From positions 1 through 64,000 of the forward strand of contig NZ_SJEE01000014.1 of NCBI RefSeq assembly GCF_006937785.1: DNA of 64,000 bases. Direction: 5' to 3'. The translations under genes were made by a program, and so were the position numbers. Below, in pieces: positions 22,208 through 31,644 of this stretch. The DNA comes from Pseudanabaena sp. UWO311. GTDB lineage: Bacteria > Cyanobacteriota > Cyanobacteriia > Pseudanabaenales > Pseudanabaenaceae. Position 1 is the stretch's first letter. Each line of letters opens with the position of its first letter. Under the pieces are notes generated by a model. It saw nothing but the letters and a program-made list of their open reading frames with translations. It searched no databases and was not told where the DNA came from.

Positions 22208-24223
22208 ATGAGTCTATGCATTAATCCTACTTGCCCTATCCCAGATCACCCTGATAATGATAAGTACCCAACTTGTCAAGGATGCGGCTCTGAATTATTG
22301 ATTGATGGTTGTTATACGGTCACTAAACTATTAAGTGATTCTGGTGGCTTCGGCATGATCTATGAAGCTACCGATCGCGCAGGCAATCCCAAAATCCTCA
22401 AGATCCTTAAACAGGAATTGAATGAAGATAGTAAAGCTGTGTCGCTGTTTCAGCAAGAAGCTTTTGTCTTAGGACAAATAGAACATGCAGGCATACCCAA
22501 AATTGAGACCTATGTACATCACAATCTCGAAAATGGGACAATGCTGCATGGCATTATCATGCAAAAAATTGAGGGGCTAAACCTCGAACAATGGATCAAC
22601 CAGCGCGATCGCAAACCGATCGCACAAAAGCGGGCGATCACTTGGCTGCGGCAATTGGTGGAAATTCTCGCCTTAGTTCATCGCAACAAATATTTTCATC
22701 GCGATATTAAGCCCGCAAATATTATGTTGTCCCCTTCAGGACAGCTAGTTTTAATTGACTTCGGTACAGCTCGTGAAGCTACGCATACCTATCTTGCCAA
22801 GATTGGCGGTGTACAGGGCATTACGAGCATTTGCTCGGTGGGATATACAGCACCCGAACAGGAAAAAGGCTTTGCCGTCCCACAGTCCGATTTTTATGCT
22901 CTCGGCTGTACGATGATCCATTTGGTGACAGGAAAATATCCTCTCGATACTTACAATCCCGAGCGCGACACCTTTGAGTGGCGATCGCACGCGCCTGAAA
23001 TTTCGGACGAGTTAGCCGATTTAATTGATGCGCTGATTGCGCGTAAGCCCAGCGATCGCCCAATTAATTGTGACGCGATTTTAAAAGTTATCAGGGAAAT
23101 TGAACTAATTGATAAGCTTGCGCCAAACGATAAGAACAAAGCCAAGCGGAAATCAATTAAACAATCGATTAAAGACTCAACCCGCAAACCGACTTCACCG
23201 ATTTTATTAACTATATCGGTAATGATTGCTGCATTTGTAGGACTGGGCATCGGTACAGTGATTAAGGTTTCTACGATCGGCAATTTTGATGATTTTAGTA
23301 TTCAACTGCCAGTTTTCCAGAAAAAGCGCCTGACTCCGACAAAATTTTTGCAAAAACATAGTGATGCGGTTCAAAGCGTAGCGCTTAGTCCCGATGGCAA
23401 AATAATTGCTAGCGCTAGTGATGACGGAACCGTTAAGCTCTGGGAATTAGAAGGAGATAATACTAGTCCGATTAAGGAAATAAAAGATCAAGGCGGATGG
23501 GTACGAGCAGTAGTCTTTCTATCCAATCGCCAAATCATTACTGCTGGTCAAGATAAAAACATCAAAATCATCGATATAGCGACTGGGAAAGTAGTCAAAA
23601 CTCTGAGTGGTCATACAAATCTGATTAATAATTTGGCGATCGCCCCTGCGAGTGATCTACTAGTTAGCGGCAGCTATGACAATACGGTAAATCTCTGGCA
23701 AATCTCTACGGGCAAACTACTGCGATCGCTAACAGGACATACTGATAAAATTTGGGGGTTAGCCATTTCGCCCGATGGTAAGCAGGTTATCAGTGCCAGT
23801 CGCGACAAAACAGTACGCATTTGGGATGTGAAGACAGGCGAAAGCTTAAAAATTCTCGAACATCCATCAGGAGTTACCTGCGTATTAGTAACTCCTGATG
23901 GTAAGCGCGTAATTAGTGGCAATAGTGACAACTTAATTCGAGTATGGGATCTGGCTTCAGGTAAAAAGCTATTTGAATTAAGCGAACATAAAGATGCGAT
24001 TGGTGCGATCGCTATTACTAACGATGGTAAATATCTCTTTAGTGGCGGCAAAGACAGTCAAAATTCTATCCATTTATGGAATCTGCAAACGAAATCTCCC
24101 ATATGGAATTTGATTGGTCACACAGATTTGGTAACGTCTTTAGTGATTACTCCAGATAATCTCAAACTAATTAGCAGCAGCCAAGATAAAAATATTAATA
24201 TTTGGGAAATACCTGAACTTTGA
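22208..24223 (+). CDS. Ser/Thr protein kinase with WD40 repeats
   Basis: 671 aa. The N-terminus has four cysteines (C4, C9, C23, C26), a zinc-ribbon-like knob typical of a cyanobacterial kinase subgroup. The Hanks kinase domain follows: glycine loop LLSDSGGFGMIYE, catalytic HRDIKPAN (H164-R165-D166), DFGTAREA, and APEQ. A membrane segment is near 335-355. The rest is a WD40 propeller of about seven repeats (LSPDGKIIASASDDGTVKLW and similar), which would face the outside if the segment spans. It probably senses or scaffolds through the propeller and phosphorylates cytosolic targets. It leads the signalling block, 54 bp before the first FecR gene. Confidence 0.9.
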   Translation: MSLCINPTCPIPDHPDNDKYPTCQGCGSELLIDGCYTVTKLLSDSGGFGMIYEATDRAGNPKILKILKQELNEDSKAVSLFQQEAFVLGQIEHAGIPKIETYVHHNLENGTMLHGIIMQKIEGLNLEQWINQRDRKPIAQKRAITWLRQLVEILALVHRNKYFHRDIKPANIMLSPSGQLVLIDFGTAREATHTYLAKIGGVQGITSICSVGYTAPEQEKGFAVPQSDFYALGCTMIHLVTGKYPLDTYNPERDTFEWRSHAPEISDELADLIDALIARKPSDRPINCDAILKVIREIELIDKLAPNDKNKAKRKSIKQSIKDSTRKPTSPILLTISVMIAAFVGLGIGTVIKVSTIGNFDDFSIQLPVFQKKRLTPTKFLQKHSDAVQSVALSPDGKIIASASDDGTVKLWELEGDNTSPIKEIKDQGGWVRAVVFLSNRQIITAGQDKNIKIIDIATGKVVKTLSGHTNLINNLAIAPASDLLVSGSYDNTVNLWQISTGKLLRSLTGHTDKIWGLAISPDGKQVISASRDKTVRIWDVKTGESLKILEHPSGVTCVLVTPDGKRVISGNSDNLIRVWDLASGKKLFELSEHKDAIGAIAITNDGKYLFSGGKDSQNSIHLWNLQTKSPIWNLIGHTDLVTSLVITPDNLKLISSSQDKNINIWEIPEL

Positions 24224-24277: not shown

Positions 24278-25162
24278 ATGCTGCAAAAACAAAAAAAACT
24301 AAATCTAATTTTTATTTCTTTCTTGGGAATTCTCATTAATGTCTCAGGAACAATCTTACTACCCCCAGATCAGCAAAAGATAGAAGCTCAAAGAGCGATT
24401 CAAGTTCGGACTGACCAATGGTTAAAAGTTGAACAAGTGTCGGGAAATGTCACTTATCACAATTTGTACAATTATGCGAACCGACCAGCAAGGGTAGGCG
24501 ATCGCTTACAATCGGCAAGTGATGAAATTTCTACGGGCGCAAATAGCTCCGCTGTCTTGAGCGTTGATACTGGTGTTGGGTCAATCTATGTGACAGAAAA
24601 TACAACTATCCAAATCCGTTCTTTTCGGATTGCCTCAGATAATGGGCGGATCACCAATCTGTTTGTGCCCAGAGGTAAGGCAAGACTACAGATTCGTAAA
24701 TTTACAAATCGTGGTTCTCAACTCAATATACAGACTCCTGCGGGCATAAGTGGGGTACGGGGTACAAAGTATGTTGTGCACGTCAAACCTAACGGCAATA
24801 TGCTTCTGACAACATTTCAGGGAAGCGTGGCAACAGCAGCTCAGAATCAAACAAAAATAGTTAATGGGGGGTTTCAGAATTTGACAGTTGTTGGTAACCC
24901 GCCATCCAATGCAGTACCAATTCGCAACGATGCAAGCTTGAACTATGTAATTAATAAAAAAACATCAGGTTCAGGACGTTCTATTGTTTTATCTGGTTAC
25001 ACTGATCCTTTTAATACTGTTAAGGTAGATGGGTTGGAACAGTCTTTAGATAGTAGCGGAAGGTTTTCTCTACAATTGCCTGCCACATCAAATTTAAAAG
25101 TAAAAATAACAGTGGAAACTTCTTTGGGGAAAGTACAAATCTATGAGATTCCGATTCTCTGA
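24278..25162 (+). CDS. Secreted FecR-domain protein 1
   Basis: 294 aa. The N-terminus is an export signal (KLNLIFISFLGILINVSGTI). Residues about 40-200 form a FecR-type beta-sandwich: RVGDRLQSASDEISTGANSS, SIYVTENTTIQIRSF, LFVPRGKARLQIRKF, IQTPAGISGVRGTKY. About 215-294 form a small beta domain ending KVQIYEIPIL. FecR modules act in the periplasm as signal relays; here no sigma factor or TonB receptor is nearby. It is a close paralog of the next gene, whose ATG lies 20 nt inside this gene's end. Confidence 0.85.
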   Translation: MLQKQKKLNLIFISFLGILINVSGTILLPPDQQKIEAQRAIQVRTDQWLKVEQVSGNVTYHNLYNYANRPARVGDRLQSASDEISTGANSSAVLSVDTGVGSIYVTENTTIQIRSFRIASDNGRITNLFVPRGKARLQIRKFTNRGSQLNIQTPAGISGVRGTKYVVHVKPNGNMLLTTFQGSVATAAQNQTKIVNGGFQNLTVVGNPPSNAVPIRNDASLNYVINKKTSGSGRSIVLSGYTDPFNTVKVDGLEQSLDSSGRFSLQLPATSNLKVKITVETSLGKVQIYEIPIL

Positions 25163-26063
25163 ATTTATTTCTCAACTTTTTCCTAAAAAACTTATAAATC
25201 AAAACATAATTTTTTTTGCTTTTCTAATGTTCATGATCGATATATCTGGGATTTCTCTATTATCTCAAGAACATCAAAAAGTTGAAGCTCAACAAAATAT
25301 TCAGATTCGGACTGATCAATGGTTAAAGGTTGAAGAAGTGACAGGAAATGTCACATATCGTAATTTTTACAGCTATGATAACCGTCCTGCAAGAGTAGGA
25401 GATCTTTTACAAATTGCTAGTGATGAAATTTCGACAGGAGCACACAGCTCGGCAGTTTTGACCGTAGATACAGCAGTAGGCTCTATCTATGTCGGCGAAA
25501 ACACAACTATCCAAATTCGTTCTTTTCAGATTGCCTCTGATAATGGGCGGGTTACCAATTTATATGTACCACGCGGGAAGGTAAGATTGCAGATTCGTAA
25601 ATTTACCCATCGGGGATCTCAGATTAATATCCAAACCCCTGCTGGTATTAGTGGCGTGCGGGGCACACAATATATTGCACTCGTCAAGCCAAATGGAAAT
25701 ATGTTGATTACCACAATTGAGGGGAGTGTAGCGACGACTGCTCAAAATCAGACAGAAATAGTTAATGGTGGATTTCAAAACATCACAGTTGTTGGTGAAC
25801 CGCCTTCGACACCTATTCCTTTTACCGATGATGCAAGTTTGAGATATATAATTAATAGACAAGTATCAGGTTTAAGCCGTTCTATAGTTGTGTCGGGTTA
25901 CACCAGTCCTTCTAACACCGTTAAGGTAGATGAATTGGAACAATCTTTAGATGGCAATGGAGAGTTTTCCCTAAAATTTCCTGCAACTTCAAGCCTAAAA
26001 GTTAAAGTAACAGTGGAAACTCCTACGGGAAAGATACAAGTTTATGAGATCCCCATTCTCTGA
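25143..26063 (+). CDS. Secreted FecR-domain protein 2
   Basis: 306 aa, visibly a tandem duplicate of FecR protein 1 (the same segments QIRTDQWLKVEEVTGNVTY, STGAHSSAVLTVDTAVGSIY, RGSQINIQTPAGISGVRGTQ and the end IQVYEIPIL). It starts 20 nt upstream of the previous stop, so its first codons (MRFRFSEFIS) read the FecR1 tail in another frame. A hydrophobic stretch at about residues 21-40 serves as export signal. Its own tail in turn contains the start of the CHASE2 gene. It probably supplies a periplasmic partner for that receptor (inference from coupling). Confidence 0.85.
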   Translation: MRFRFSEFISQLFPKKLINQNIIFFAFLMFMIDISGISLLSQEHQKVEAQQNIQIRTDQWLKVEEVTGNVTYRNFYSYDNRPARVGDLLQIASDEISTGAHSSAVLTVDTAVGSIYVGENTTIQIRSFQIASDNGRVTNLYVPRGKVRLQIRKFTHRGSQINIQTPAGISGVRGTQYIALVKPNGNMLITTIEGSVATTAQNQTEIVNGGFQNITVVGEPPSTPIPFTDDASLRYIINRQVSGLSRSIVVSGYTSPSNTVKVDELEQSLDGNGEFSLKFPATSSLKVKVTVETPTGKIQVYEIPIL

Positions 26064-28575
26064 GTTTATTTCTCGATTATTTCCTAAATTGTTAACAACT
26101 TACCAAACTAAACGCTGGCGATCGCGTTTAGTTAGTTTGATGTGTCGAGCCTTGCCCACTCTGTTTGCAATAATTGTCATAATTCCCATGGTTTACCTAG
26201 GGTTTATACAAACAATCGAATTTTGGGCATACAACAGTTTTACTAACTGGCGCGGCGATAGACCTTGGGATGAGCGCGTCATAATTATTGCCATTGACGA
26301 TAAGAGCCTCAGTAAAATTGGCAGATTTCCGTGGACTCGCAATCTATATGTGCAGCTTATCCAAGAGCTTGAAAAAACTGAAGCCAGTATTGTGGGTTTT
26401 GATATTTTATGGTCTGAATCAACTCTTGCTGATCAGCAATTAGCCGCTGCAATTGCTAGATATCAGAAAGTCGTTCTAGCTATGGCTTGGGATAAGTCTG
26501 GGCAGCCACTACTGCCGATCGCACCTATCAATAATGTAGGTGTGGCAATTGGGCATATTCTTAAGCGTGAAGATACAGATGGAGTTGTGCATCAAGTTGA
26601 TTTGCAAATCAAAAATATTCCAACTTTCGCTGTGTCAATATTGCAAGCCTATGACTTAACAACTGCCTCCAATACTTTATTGCCAGAGCTGGATCAAACA
26701 TTAACTATTAATTGGACAAAGAGAGCCAAAGATACACCTCAAGTATCATTTAGTGATGTCATTGATGGCAAAATCCCTGTTTCAACCTTCCGCAATAAAA
26801 TTGTCTTGGTTGGCGTAACAGCTTCAGGCCTAGATGATTTAGTAACTCCGCTTGATCGAAACCCTCCAGCAAGTGGAGTCCATTTACATGCAATGGTTTT
26901 GCAAAATCTACTGCAAAAAAATTCTTTTGGGGTTGCTAAACCTATCAATGTTTGGAGCATTGCTCTATTAGGGAGTCTGATTATTGGCTTGATCTTACCA
27001 AGACAAAATTTATGGACTGGAACTATAAGTGCTTTTGTTCTATCTGGGCTATGGCTGATCGTTGCTTTTATCGCTTTTAAAGCTAACTACTTAATTGAGA
27101 TTGCTGTTCCCATTCTGATGTTTCTATTAACGGGTTTCGCGATCGCTTTGCAAGAGCGTTGGCAAATGCAGCAATCGCTAAAGATTGCCAATTCTCAACT
27201 TCAATACGAATCTACCCATGATCATTTAACAGGATTATATAATCGGACTCTGATCGAAACCCGTTTGCAAAATCTGCTTCATCCCAAAGATTTAACCTTT
27301 CAAAGCGGTGACAGCCAAAATCTTATAGCTATTTTTTGGATTAATTTAGATCGCTTTAAAACCATTAATGACACCTTTGGTCATCCTGTTGGCAATCTGA
27401 TCCTAGTTACAGTCAGCCAATGTTTGAGTAATTCTATTCCTCCTAACGCATCGATTGCTCGTTTTGGCGGTGCTGAGTTTGTCATCCTCCTAGAAAAATT
27501 AGGCGATCAACAAGAGGCGATCGCGATTGCCGATCGCATTCAAGTAAACTTGCAAAATCCTTTTACGATCAATGACCATGAGATTAAGATTGAGGCTAAT
27601 ATTGGCATCAAGTTTCATCAAGTTAATAGCATTGACGAACCTGATTATCCTGAAATAATTTCTGCTGAGATTCTCCTCAGAGATGCTGACACAGCGATGT
27701 TTTATGCAAAAAAGCTGGGTAACTCATGCAATAAGGTCTTCGATATTTCTATGCGTGAACGTGTGCTCAAACGATTAAAGCTCGAAAAGGATCTCCGAAA
27801 AGCGGTTTCTTTCTGTCAAGATCATAGCAATCAAGACGAGCAAGAATTTCTAATCTACTATCAACCAATTCTATCTCTCAGTGATATGGAGATAGTTGGG
27901 TTAGAAGCATTAATTAGATGGAAACATCCTGAACGCGGCTTAATATCACCAATCCAATTTATACCTTTAGCCGAAGAGACAGGGCTAATTATTTCTATTG
28001 GAGATTGGATTATGCGCAATGCTTGCTTGCAGGTAAAATCTTGGCAACAACGCTTTCCTAAAGCCAAAGATATAACAATTAGTGTCAATCTATCTCCCAA
28101 ACAATTAGCACAGAATGATGTATTAGAAAAATGCCTTTGCATTCTCCAAGAGACACAACTATCTTCTGAATATCTCAAAATAGAATTAACGGAAAGCTCG
28201 ATCATGGAGAACCCCGATTTTGCAATAAGTGTACTCAGTCAGATGCGGCAAGCAGGGATTAAGATTTATATTGATGATTTCGGCACAGGATATTCATCGC
28301 TTGCCTATTTACATGAGTTTCCTTTTGATGGCTTAAAAATAGATCGATCTTTTGTCAACAATATCCATAAAAATTCAAATGGAATGGAAATTCTTCAGGC
28401 GATTATATCCTTAGCACATAGTGTCAAGGCTCATATTGTCGCAGAAGGGATTGAGAACTTAGCTCAGTTAAATTATTTGCAAGATTTACTTAGTGAAGAA
28501 GGTGATGGTCAGGGATTCTTTCTATTCCGTCCTCTTGATGTTGATGCGATCGAAGCAATTTTTCAAACGACATGA
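26044..28575 (+). CDS. CHASE2-GGDEF-EAL membrane receptor
   Basis: 843 aa. One membrane segment (about 38-56), a CHASE2 extracytoplasmic domain (about 60-300; DERVIIIAIDDKSLSKIGRFPW, NKIVLVGVTASG), three segments (about 303-368), a GGDEF domain (about 390-565) and an EAL domain (about 595-840). The GGDEF motif reads GGAEF (475-479), so diguanylate cyclase activity is doubtful. The EAL domain keeps EAL (621-623), the N of VNLSPKQ, IDDFGTGYSS and AEGIEN, and should hydrolyse c-di-GMP. The ATG is 20 nt inside FecR gene 2, so translation is likely coupled. Confidence 0.92.
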   Translation: MRSPFSEFISRLFPKLLTTYQTKRWRSRLVSLMCRALPTLFAIIVIIPMVYLGFIQTIEFWAYNSFTNWRGDRPWDERVIIIAIDDKSLSKIGRFPWTRNLYVQLIQELEKTEASIVGFDILWSESTLADQQLAAAIARYQKVVLAMAWDKSGQPLLPIAPINNVGVAIGHILKREDTDGVVHQVDLQIKNIPTFAVSILQAYDLTTASNTLLPELDQTLTINWTKRAKDTPQVSFSDVIDGKIPVSTFRNKIVLVGVTASGLDDLVTPLDRNPPASGVHLHAMVLQNLLQKNSFGVAKPINVWSIALLGSLIIGLILPRQNLWTGTISAFVLSGLWLIVAFIAFKANYLIEIAVPILMFLLTGFAIALQERWQMQQSLKIANSQLQYESTHDHLTGLYNRTLIETRLQNLLHPKDLTFQSGDSQNLIAIFWINLDRFKTINDTFGHPVGNLILVTVSQCLSNSIPPNASIARFGGAEFVILLEKLGDQQEAIAIADRIQVNLQNPFTINDHEIKIEANIGIKFHQVNSIDEPDYPEIISAEILLRDADTAMFYAKKLGNSCNKVFDISMRERVLKRLKLEKDLRKAVSFCQDHSNQDEQEFLIYYQPILSLSDMEIVGLEALIRWKHPERGLISPIQFIPLAEETGLIISIGDWIMRNACLQVKSWQQRFPKAKDITISVNLSPKQLAQNDVLEKCLCILQETQLSSEYLKIELTESSIMENPDFAISVLSQMRQAGIKIYIDDFGTGYSSLAYLHEFPFDGLKIDRSFVNNIHKNSNGMEILQAIISLAHSVKAHIVAEGIENLAQLNYLQDLLSEEGDGQGFFLFRPLDVDAIEAIFQTT

Positions 28576-28695
28576 TGATAATCATGTAGGCTGTGATTAC
28601 CACAAATCAGAATCATCATAGAACCTTATACTCAAGTAAAGACTAATTTTGGAATCCATATAGTGCTCCTACAGCAATTACCAAAAAAGAGCCAT

Positions 28696-28744
28696 AAGAC
28701 AAATTTTGAAAGCTTTGCTTTGCAAAGCTTTCAAAATTTGTCTT
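28696..28744. terminator. 23-bp palindromic terminator after the CHASE2 gene
   Basis: Arms 28696-28718 and 28722-28744 with loop TTT (core GAAAGCTTTGC), 120 bp beyond the stop at 28575. A GAGCACAAAGCGCTA motif and repeat R3 follow, the same arrangement as at 5333-5453. Confidence 0.7.
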
Positions 28745-28769
28745 GGTTTAGATTTGAGCACAAAGCGCT

Positions 28770-28872
28770 ATACCAAAACAAAAAATGGCGCAGCCATTTC
28801 TTGTTTTTAAAATCCTTACTAGGTTTAGTTTTTAATTCACGAAAGTGTTGACATACTTTCGTGAATTGGTAT
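28770..28872 (-). repeat. Dispersed repeat, copy R3
   Basis: Complete copy on the minus strand: ATACCAAAACAAAAAATGGC to ACTTTCGTGAATTGGTAT, with both hairpins and the AAATCCTTACTAGGTTTAG middle. It lies in the gap between the two FecR-CHASE2 modules. Confidence 0.75.
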
Positions 28873-28995
28873 AACAGCTTATTTCTAAGAGATTTTAGGA
28901 ATTAAAGCTATAGTAAATTATTTAGAGTTACTATAAAAGCCTAAATGATTTGCATATTTTTAAGTAAGTATGAGAGGCTAACCCTTACTGGGAAA

Positions 28996-29042
28996 CGAAT
29001 CATTAAGTGTGCACAGCTTTGCTGCGCACACTTAATGATTCG
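28996..29042. terminator. 22-bp palindrome with TTT loop
   Basis: Arms 28996-29017 and 29021-29042 (left arm CGAATCATTAAGTGTGCACA.GC) pair with a single mismatch. No gene end is within 400 bp, so it is either a second terminator before FecR gene 3 or a mobile hairpin unit. The rest of 28873-29165 holds no recognisable feature. Confidence 0.5.
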
Positions 29043-29165
29043 CGGGGAAGGGAGTAACTATCTTTGGAATTGCTATATATTGATTAAAATGCCACAAACT
29101 TATCCAGTAGTTGGTATATTAATCTAAGGTTCTCAGTTGTACACTTCATCGCTACATTCAATTCT

Positions 29166-30068
29166 TTGCATTTACAAATGATCAACAATATCTCTTGCCA
29201 AAACTTATGGAATAAAAAGTTTTTTGGCATTCTTAGCTATGGTAGTGCAGCCTTTATTTTGGTGCTATCGGGGAATGTTGACCTTAGTGATGCCCAATCT
29301 CAACTACAAGTAAAAACAAACCGATATTTGCAAGTAGAACAAGTTAGAGGCAAAGTTTTTTTTCGTAACCAAAATACTAATCGTCCTGCGCGTAAAGGCG
29401 ATCGCCTTTCAACAATTGGTGATGAAATCGCCACAGATGGAAAATCCACAGCAGTATTAAGTGTTGATACAGGCATAGGCTTTGTCAATGTAAGCGAGAA
29501 AACAGTAGTTCGCATCGATAAACTGCAAATTACTAGCGATGATGGAAGAATTACGATTTTGCAAGTACCCAAAGGACAAGTACGCTTGCAAATTAGACGA
29601 TTCTCTAATCCTAGTTCACGATTTAATATTCAGACTCCTGCTGTCGTTACGGGAGTTAGAGGCACAGAATATGTATTAAATGTGAAAGATGATGGTCGCA
29701 CGATCCTCTCTACCTTTGATGGTGCAGTTATGACTGAAGCCCAAAACACAGAGGTTTTAGTGGATAAAGGATTCCAAAATCAGACTATATTAGGAGAACC
29801 ACCTTCTCAGCCAGTTCCTATTCAGGACAATAATGATCTGGAGTATCAAGTTATCAAGCAATTTGAAGAAGGCGATCGCAAAGTGATCCTAATTGGAAAG
29901 GTAGATTTTGCAAACACAGTATCAATTGATGGAGTTGAGCAAAGTGTTGATCGAAATGGTCAATTTAGGGCTGTATTAACCACCAATTCAATCTATAGAG
30001 CTGAGATCAAAGTCATCGTCTCCAACCCTTTGGGCAAACAACGTACCTATGAACTGGTTATTTTCTAA
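29166..30068 (+). CDS. Secreted FecR-domain protein 3
   Basis: 300 aa, more diverged than FecR 1 and 2 but collinear: export signal at about 20-42, then LQVEQVRGKVFFRNQ, RKGDRLSTIGDEIATDGKS, FVNVSEKTVVRIDKLQI, VPKGQVRLQIRRFS, IQTPAVVTGVRGTEY, and a C-terminal beta domain ending RTYELVIF. The upstream ATG could also be the internal one at 29178 (MINNIS). As with the other modules, the next gene starts 20 nt inside its end. It probably works with the CHASE2-GGDEF protein at 30049. Confidence 0.85.
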   Translation: MHLQMINNISCQNLWNKKFFGILSYGSAAFILVLSGNVDLSDAQSQLQVKTNRYLQVEQVRGKVFFRNQNTNRPARKGDRLSTIGDEIATDGKSTAVLSVDTGIGFVNVSEKTVVRIDKLQITSDDGRITILQVPKGQVRLQIRRFSNPSSRFNIQTPAVVTGVRGTEYVLNVKDDGRTILSTFDGAVMTEAQNTEVLVDKGFQNQTILGEPPSQPVPIQDNNDLEYQVIKQFEEGDRKVILIGKVDFANTVSIDGVEQSVDRNGQFRAVLTTNSIYRAEIKVIVSNPLGKQRTYELVIF

Positions 30069-31644
30069 ACGAGTAATAAAAAGATCTATTCCTTGGACAG
30101 TCTCAACGGCAATCGTCTCCATTTTATACAGTTTCGGCGCTTTTCAACCCCTTGAACACTTTGTCTATAATCGATTTACCAACTGGCGTTTTGATCGAAA
30201 TTGGGATGAGCGTCTAGTAATTATTGCTATCGATGATGCGAGTATCGAAAAATTAGGACGCTTTCCGTGGACACGCGATCGATATATACCCTTAATCCAA
30301 AAGCTCACAAAAGCTAATGCGAGTACAGTTGCCATTAATTTAATTTGGTCAGAGCCTAGCTCTGCTGATACATTGCTAGCCAAAGTAATGTCTGACAATA
30401 GACATGTTGTTTTATCTCAAGCTTGGAACACTCAGGGCAAAATGTTACTACCAGTTCCACAACTTGGTGAAGCAGCGATCGGTACAGGACATATTCTTGA
30501 GCCGAAAAGTAGTGATGGGATTGTCCGACGGGTAGAGTTATATAAGGATGATGTGCCCTCGCTAGCAATGGCGACCCTACAAGCCTACAACCTAGTTTGG
30601 GGAAATGTACCAATGCCAAACCCAGATTTAGAATTCGGCATAAATTGGACATATCGTTCTTCACAAATGCGCCAATATTCTTTTGTTGATGTAATCGAAG
30701 AGCGTATTCCTCTAGATACTTTCCAAAACAAGATTGTTCTTGTGGGCGTAACTGCTACTGGGAATGATGCATTGGTTACACCTTTTGATGGAAATGATTC
30801 GGCTCACAATGTCCATTTACATGCCAACATTCTCCAAAATCTATTACAGCAGAATCAGTTACGAGTTCCTGAAATACATTGGACTTGGTGGGTACAGCTA
30901 TTCGTTGGGATGGCGTTAGCTTGGATACTTGGGCAAAGTAAAATTTTTCAACAAATAGTAATAGTGATAGTCCTTTCTGGTGGTTGGGGAATCTGTACTT
31001 TTGGATTCTTCATACTTGGCTATTGGTTGCCAGTAGCTATGCCTATCACCTTAATCATGTCTATTGGATTATTCAGTATTGTTCAAAATCAAATTGAATC
31101 AAGGCAGCATCTGCAACAAATGAACTCTAAGCTTTCCTATGAAGCTTTTCATGACCATCTTACTGGCTTAGCCAATCGCATTTTACTTATCGATCGCATT
31201 AATCATGCGATTTCTCTCTACCAAAGACATGGTTATCTATTTGCAGTTATTTTGGTGGATTTGGATGGATTCAAGGCTATTAACGATAATCTAGGTCATT
31301 TAAACGGAGATCGCCTACTGATCGAGGTGGCAAAACGCTTAAGTGCATCAATTCGCACAGGTGATACTGCTGCTAGGCTTGGAGGCGACGAGTTTGTGGT
31401 TTTGCTAGACAATCTTAAGGAAAAGCAAGATGCAATCATTACGATTGAAAGAATTCAAGCAGCCATGGCTCCAACTTGTTGTCTTGATGGCAACAAGATC
31501 AACATTTCCATGAGTATGGGCATGGCTTTTAGTATTGAATCCTATCAAAGTCCAAAAGATATCCTCGCTGATGCTGATATTGCCATGTATCAGGCTAAAT
31601 CTCTTGGTAAATCCTGCTATCAAGTTTTTGATAATTTAATCTAA
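30049..31644 (+). CDS. CHASE2-GGDEF diguanylate cyclase
   Basis: 531 aa. One N-terminal membrane segment (about 14-32), CHASE2 domain (about 35-280; DERLVIIAIDDASIEKLGRFPWTR, NKIVLVGVTATG), three segments (about 285-350) and a C-terminal GGDEF domain with intact GGDEF (445-449) preceded by DGFKAINDNLGHLNGDRLL. It should make c-di-GMP under control of an outside signal. It lacks the EAL domain of its paralog at 26044, so the two modules may act in opposite directions. It starts inside the FecR3 tail and ends 2 bp from the convergent ABC gene. Confidence 0.92.
   Translation: MNWLFSKRVIKRSIPWTVSTAIVSILYSFGAFQPLEHFVYNRFTNWRFDRNWDERLVIIAIDDASIEKLGRFPWTRDRYIPLIQKLTKANASTVAINLIWSEPSSADTLLAKVMSDNRHVVLSQAWNTQGKMLLPVPQLGEAAIGTGHILEPKSSDGIVRRVELYKDDVPSLAMATLQAYNLVWGNVPMPNPDLEFGINWTYRSSQMRQYSFVDVIEERIPLDTFQNKIVLVGVTATGNDALVTPFDGNDSAHNVHLHANILQNLLQQNQLRVPEIHWTWWVQLFVGMALAWILGQSKIFQQIVIVIVLSGGWGICTFGFFILGYWLPVAMPITLIMSIGLFSIVQNQIESRQHLQQMNSKLSYEAFHDHLTGLANRILLIDRINHAISLYQRHGYLFAVILVDLDGFKAINDNLGHLNGDRLLIEVAKRLSASIRTGDTAARLGGDEFVVLLDNLKEKQDAIITIERIQAAMAPTCCLDGNKINISMSMGMAFSIESYQSPKDILADADIAMYQAKSLGKSCYQVFDNLI

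Follow-up and report, generated by a model that had tools for sequence, protein, structure and literature searches.

Two paralogous FecR-CHASE2 gene pairs in Pseudanabaena: probable envelope-sensing input modules with an inherited 20-nt overlap

Five genes for FecR-domain proteins and CHASE2 receptors lie on the plus strand at positions 24278-31644 of a DNA stretch from Pseudanabaena sp. UWO311 (contig NZ_SJEE01000014.1). The whole stretch that we analyzed, 64,000 nucleotides (nt) long, is called the window below. The listing of open reading frames (ORFs), the raw sequence and Pfam agree that three of these genes encode FecR proteins and two encode CHASE2 receptors. We refer to FecR1, FecR2 and CHASE2-1 as module 1 and to FecR3 and CHASE2-2 as module 2 (Table 1). 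The FecR domains (PF04773) score 35.7, 36.8 and 40.1 bits against a curated cut-off of 24, and the CHASE2 domains (PF05226), which have enzyme outputs behind them, score 163.5 and 161 bits against 26.3. In both modules a FecR gene is the immediate same-strand neighbor of a CHASE2 gene. The original prediction pointed to three gene overlaps of equal length at this locus, and proposed that translation is coupled and that the FecR protein is an obligate periplasmic partner of the receptor. The overlaps are where it placed them. All three are exactly 20 nt long and start at the second base of TAT in TAT-GAG or TAT-GAA, that is, at a Tyr-Glu codon pair.

In the FecR proteins the N-terminus is hydrophobic and leads into a cleavage-like (E/D)A/Q site, whose Ala-Gln pair is invariant in an alignment of 14 relatives; we read this N-terminus as a Sec signal peptide. 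Since the hydrophobic segment is N-terminal, the layout is not that of E. coli-type FecR, where a cytoplasmic N-terminal segment precedes a transmembrane (TM) helix and the FecR domain. Neither fecI nor fecA is found among the neighbors of the window FecR genes, which are a kinase-WD40 gene, the CHASE2 genes and an ABC-transporter-like ORF. Pfam detects the FecR domain alone in these proteins and nothing convincing in their C-terminal part. FecR3 has an alternative in-frame TTG start at 29166, but relatives share the ATG at 29178, which is likely the true start.

The TM helices of the CHASE2 receptors were read from the sequence. In place of an intact GGDEF active site (A-site), CHASE2-1 has GGAEF, together with an intact EAL motif and DDFGTG, and the same holds for 7/7 orthologues checked; it is predicted to be a phosphodiesterase of cyclic di-GMP (c-di-GMP). 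CHASE2-2 carries RTGD...GGDEF, with GGDEF at residue 445, and so has both the A-site and an RxxD I-site; it is predicted to be a diguanylate cyclase. The two adjacent enzymes are predicted to form a pair opposed in activity.

Table 1. Genes, overlaps and duplicated segment at the FecR-CHASE2 locus (positions in the window; aa, amino acids)
Feature	Coordinates	Strand	Basis
FecR1, 294 aa, read as exported; upstream copy of the tandem duplication	24278..25162	+	Pfam FecR 1.2e-8; 72% identity with FecR2
First copy of the 901-bp tandem duplication	24285..25185	n/a	local alignment 24285/25186 and offset-901 identity profile
FecR1/FecR2 overlap, 20 nt, by-product of the tandem duplication	25143..25162	+	offset-901 comparison
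FecR2, 306 aa, first ~15 codons from the CHASE2 gene start	25143..26063	+	Pfam FecR 5.7e-9
FecR2/CHASE2-1 overlap, 20 nt, at TAT-GAG	26044..26063	+	conserved in Pseudanabaena and other families
CHASE2-1: CHASE2, TM helices, GGAEF, EAL	26044..28575	+	Pfam CHASE2 9.2e-48, GGDEF 9.6e-32, EAL 6.9e-68
FecR3, 296 aa, read as exported, module 2	29178..30068	+	Pfam FecR 4.9e-10
FecR3/CHASE2-2 overlap, 20 nt, at TAT-GAA	30049..30068	+	same in L018, L019, L024, L100
CHASE2-2: CHASE2, TM helices, intact GGDEF, RxxD I-site	30049..31644	+	Pfam CHASE2 5.1e-47, GGDEF 4.9e-45

How did three equal overlaps arise? At an offset of 901 bp, positions 25143-25187, where FecR2 starts, match 26044-26088, where the CHASE2-1 gene starts, with 80-93% identity per 15-nt block, and beyond 25187 the identity falls to 13-40%. 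In a local alignment FecR2 matches FecR1 from 24285/25186 onward, so that the second copy starts at 25186, with the junction within an A-run. FecR2 thus opens with 45 nt copied from the start of the CHASE2-1 gene and carries the first ~15 codons of that gene (MRFRFSEFISQLFPKK versus MRSPFSEFISRLFPKL). Judged from these comparisons, a tandem duplication of fecR that reached 45 nt into the CHASE2 gene produced both FecR2 and the overlap at 25143. The two modules are, by their sequences, paralogous: protein identity is 72% for FecR1/FecR2, 43% for FecR2/FecR3 and 43% for CHASE2-1/CHASE2-2. Therefore only one ancestral overlap need be assumed, and the three overlaps of the window, as read from these alignments, are not independent events.

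Relatives with a single FecR gene (L018-L023) have one overlap per module. The double-FecR form, with its FecR1/FecR2 overlap, occurs in only a few genomes (L017/G190, G424). At another locus, L084 (G426:C8), the upstream FecR duplicate is broken into pieces and the copy adjacent to CHASE2 is intact. Two consecutive FecR domains of another FecR type precede a CHASE2 domain at G008:C22:115178-117941; judging from these domain coordinates, FecR upstream of CHASE2 has probably been duplicated on more than one occasion.

One might suppose that the equality of the overlaps is a coincidence. Duplication explains two of the three, and the window itself offers little independent evidence. The survey of relatives refutes the idea and leaves it next to no probability: the order FecR then CHASE2 with an overlap of exactly 20 nt recurs in 8/8 related loci from a scan of a genome collection (Pseudanabaena species, one Phormidium and one metagenome bin), and it is found in eight families. 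FecR profile searches covered 291 Cyanobacteriota genomes, one family and the order. The overlap is present in 35 of the 50 cyanobacterial FecR-to-CHASE2 rows, being exactly 20 nt in 34 and 17 nt in one; the eight families are the resolved Pseudanabaena pairs, all with 20 nt, and seven further families (one member with 17 nt). Pairs elsewhere have overlaps of 4 nt or 1 nt, or gaps. Mapped onto the tree of CHASE2, the state of the overlap changes 3 times in the main clade (40 rows) and 5 times across the full 50, which is most simply seen as one inheritance with several losses. The overlap is thus conserved in relatives, as had been anticipated, but as an inherited trait of one lineage and not as a requirement, since shorter overlaps, gaps and reversed order persist beside it. 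At L211 (G212:C114), a CHASE2 frame of ~311 aa in which no output domain was detected stands behind a FecR gene with a 20-nt overlap; this frame may be a broken gene or a receptor with a separate output.

A more serious suggestion sees in the overlap a device tuned for translational coupling, in which ribosomes ending fecR would start CHASE2 and thereby fix the FecR:CHASE2 ratio that is required. Those 35 rows all retain the start ATG and the open frame, across eight families and with few changes on the tree. In overlapped pairs the codons after Tyr-Glu are limited to CTG, TTG and those of Ile/Val, so that Leu is written only as CTG or TTG, as dual coding demands. However, other pairs exist with 1-nt or 4-nt overlaps, with gaps or in reverse order. 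Where a pair keeps TATGA and starts elsewhere, a Leu codon TTA or CTA mostly comes next, giving ATGAATTAG or ATGAACTAG, and in one such pair Gln replaces Glu. FecRs without an overlapping gene still end in Y[EQ]LxVP; because the Tyr-Glu pair is kept in them, it is a feature of the FecR protein, and constraint on FecR alone can preserve TATGA. The phase is also the expected one, for the commonest prokaryotic overlaps are of 4 and 1 nt, and those longer than 4 nt are mostly in the phase seen here (PMC3887535). The overlap then looks like a frozen ancestral start inside the last FecR strand rather than a required device. It is possible that it couples translation to some degree, but we consider a tuned device unlikely.

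Whatever the overlap does, the two genes keep company far beyond it. In 39 Cyanobacteriota genomes, a same-strand CHASE2 domain stands no more than 3.5 kb from 19 of 49 FecR domains, versus 0.2 expected; by the same measure 17 of the 146 CHASE2 domains in these genomes are linked to FecR. In some more distant Cyanobacteriota FecR is downstream, not upstream, of CHASE2, and in one large family many seemingly solitary FecRs sit ~0.5-1 kb downstream of a CHASE2 gene. An early count of FecR orphans was rejected when longer stretches showed many of them in that position. At L190 the FecR and CHASE2 genes are divergent and ~0.6 kb apart, the usual order being on the same strand. With pairs of these kinds persisting without overlap, the idea that the overlap is the mechanism by which the pair works is not supported. 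Adjacency outlives gene order and overlap, and therefore argues for a functional link.

The link is also seen from the receptor side. A profile built from these receptors gave 27 strong matches, and a FecR neighbor stands beside 23 of these 27 closest CHASE2 genes. FecR-linked cyanobacterial CHASE2 domains, a set gathered mainly through FecR matches, form a clade of their own (48 rows, Shimodaira-Hasegawa-like approximate likelihood ratio support 99), apart from the clade of unlinked cyanobacterial domains. Proteobacteria were sampled through plasmids only, and there a FecR-domain gene adjoins the CHASE2 match at every CHASE2 locus examined that has a gene table; four further plasmid records without a usable gene table were left out of this count. 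The pairs are nsrA/cyaK of S. meliloti and those of Methylocystis, Microvirga, Rhizobium, P. aeruginosa, Variovorax, Eleftheria, Bosea, Methylobacterium, Phyllobacterium and Methyloprofundus, where the neighbor was recognized as FecR by Pfam. Beside two CHASE2 genes on Calothrix plasmids no FecR gene is annotated, and a search of the plasmids with the FecR protein as query gave no match. The expectation that FecR and CHASE2 genes are adjacent in relatives is borne out well beyond the eight loci, in cyanobacteria and in Proteobacteria, and a functional link of the two genes is supported by their positions.

The constant FecR-CHASE2 part is combined with many outputs: GGDEF, GGDEF-EAL, PAS-GGDEF-EAL, histidine kinase or hybrid histidine kinase, and adenylate/guanylate cyclase. 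The 20-nt overlap is found with several of these types. Because the outputs vary, FecR is to be assigned to the CHASE2 input rather than to c-di-GMP. The c-di-GMP output that had been proposed holds, as a prediction, for both enzymes of the window, but it is only one of several across the pairs.

The original prediction knew of no study of this pairing, but the literature contains at least three related cases. In S. meliloti, NsrA and CyaK are both required for the response to uL2; a beta-barrel is described for NsrA residues 600-1200, and the FecR domain goes unmentioned (PMC7529298). The nsrA gene is directly upstream of cyaK with a 1-nt overlap, and in an NsrA relative from another strain the FecR domain is N-terminal and TPRs are present. 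The parallel to the window is that the gene of a FecR-domain protein stands immediately before that of a CHASE2 cyclase, an outer protein being paired with a CHASE2 enzyme of the inner membrane; that one signal requires both partners is shown only for NsrA-CyaK. Unlike the window proteins, NsrA spans ~1190 aa, carries TPRs and ends in a beta-barrel, and the pair signals through cyclic AMP (cAMP) and lacks the 20-nt overlap; at 294-306 aa, the window FecRs do not have TPRs and an outer-membrane barrel behind the FecR domain. By analogy, NsrA-CyaK offers a genetic precedent for signaling from a FecR protein to CHASE2. In Campylobacterota, a cluster of CHASE2 adenylate cyclase, FecR, TPR and phosphodiesterase genes was proposed to be one pathway (PMC9239204). 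It likewise joins a CHASE2 enzyme to a FecR-domain protein, but with cAMP output, an outer-membrane FecR protein and four genes. The Burkholderia BiofilmReg operon has a FecR-domain gene immediately before a CHASE2 receptor gene (PMC5192318), as here, but the protein is LysM-FecR, the output is a histidine kinase, and there is a response regulator. CHASE2 diguanylate cyclases are known as well: in Dgc2 of Leptolyngbya boryana (PMC10581220) and Alr1219 of Anabaena (PMC13075795) CHASE2 drives a GGDEF enzyme as in the window, and neither paper mentions a FecR partner. The locus represents a known type of gene pair in a c-di-GMP form, and the history of its overlap can be traced.

Taken as a whole, the locus is best explained as a paralogous pair of envelope-sensing input modules, each of two parts, with an inherited overlap, a reading to which we give a probability of about 0.68. 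After Sec export, the FecR-domain protein would act within the periplasm on the CHASE2 domain of the receptor that the neighboring gene encodes and that sits in the inner membrane. The receptor would relay the signal to its cytoplasmic output, the predicted EAL phosphodiesterase in module 1 and the predicted diguanylate cyclase in module 2. A similar working is seen in YfiBNR, where the activity of a GGDEF enzyme in the inner membrane is controlled by a periplasmic protein from the same operon; YfiR and YfiN have domains other than FecR and CHASE2 and are not of the same family. We infer that FecR works on CHASE2 because of the linkage, its spread, the varied outputs and the NsrA-CyaK genetics, and by gene context and analogy this is the most likely mechanism. 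As for the overlap, the CHASE2 start codon would have fallen inside the conserved C-terminal FecR strand (Y-E-[LI]-x-[VI]-x-stop contains TATGA), then been inherited, copied once with the tandem FecR duplication and lost several times; retention of the pair would not need it.

Several points weigh against this reading. NsrA is a distant precedent, differing by its TPR and barrel parts. In S. meliloti, smc02177, a FecR gene near cyaD1 (smc02176), was dispensable for perception of the plant signal in a reporter assay (PMC5498481), though redundancy with CyaD2 and CyaK could have hidden an effect. FecR can hardly be the obligate partner that was proposed, given that 4 of the 27 closest CHASE2 genes and 9 of the 11 CHASE2 genes of this genome have no FecR nearby, and several FecRs have no CHASE2 neighbor. 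The way in which the linked set was gathered biases the clade test. Finally, the single-chain AlphaFold2 models are of low confidence, both for FecR3 (14 rows; mean predicted local distance difference test, pLDDT, 62; predicted template modeling score, pTM, 0.42) and for CHASE2-2 (12 rows; pLDDT 58; pTM 0.58). In the low-confidence FecR3 model the overlap-encoded residues fall in the last strand, 288-295. A Foldseek search of the PDB with both models found nothing at E<=0.001; the best FecR match was a gingipain K entry with an immunoglobulin superfamily (IgSF)-like domain at E 0.026, and that the FecR C-terminal domain is Ig-like is only a guess. Sequence search of the PDB found no relatives for FecR or CHASE2.

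Could FecR, instead of being the input partner, be an output or a co-regulated envelope protein that acts elsewhere, for example at the cell wall or the cell surface? Mutants in smc02177 have an infection phenotype but perceive the signal normally (PMC5498481), Leptospira surface proteins are among the distant FecR-domain matches, and LysM-FecR forms exist in Burkholderia (PMC5192318). Yet FecR stays beside CHASE2 across four classes of cytoplasmic enzymes, and NsrA is required upstream for CyaK signaling (PMC7529298). We find such a role rather improbable. For the input module, a wider statement can be made, with chances that we see as evenly balanced: FecR plus CHASE2 would be a general, output-independent envelope-sensing module across phyla, with FecR supplying the regulatory subunit so far missing from a distinct CHASE2 subfamily, and here a pair of such modules would drive opposing c-di-GMP enzymes.

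The surroundings deserve a brief mention. A Ser/Thr kinase-WD40 gene (22208-24223, same strand) ends 54 nt before FecR1 and could share its transcript. Between the modules lies a perfect hairpin (28696-28744, 23-nt arms, 3-nt loop), probably a terminator or the remnant of a mobile repeat, and a second repeat with 13-nt arms follows at 28834-28867.

CHASE2 receptors control motility, biofilm, cAMP and two-component outputs. If FecR is the regulatory partner of CHASE2, the search for the signal that these receptors sense moves to a soluble exported protein amenable to tests in vitro. Strains of the Pseudanabaena type, having two paralogous modules with opposite predicted outputs, would allow partner specificity to be tested by FecR swaps.

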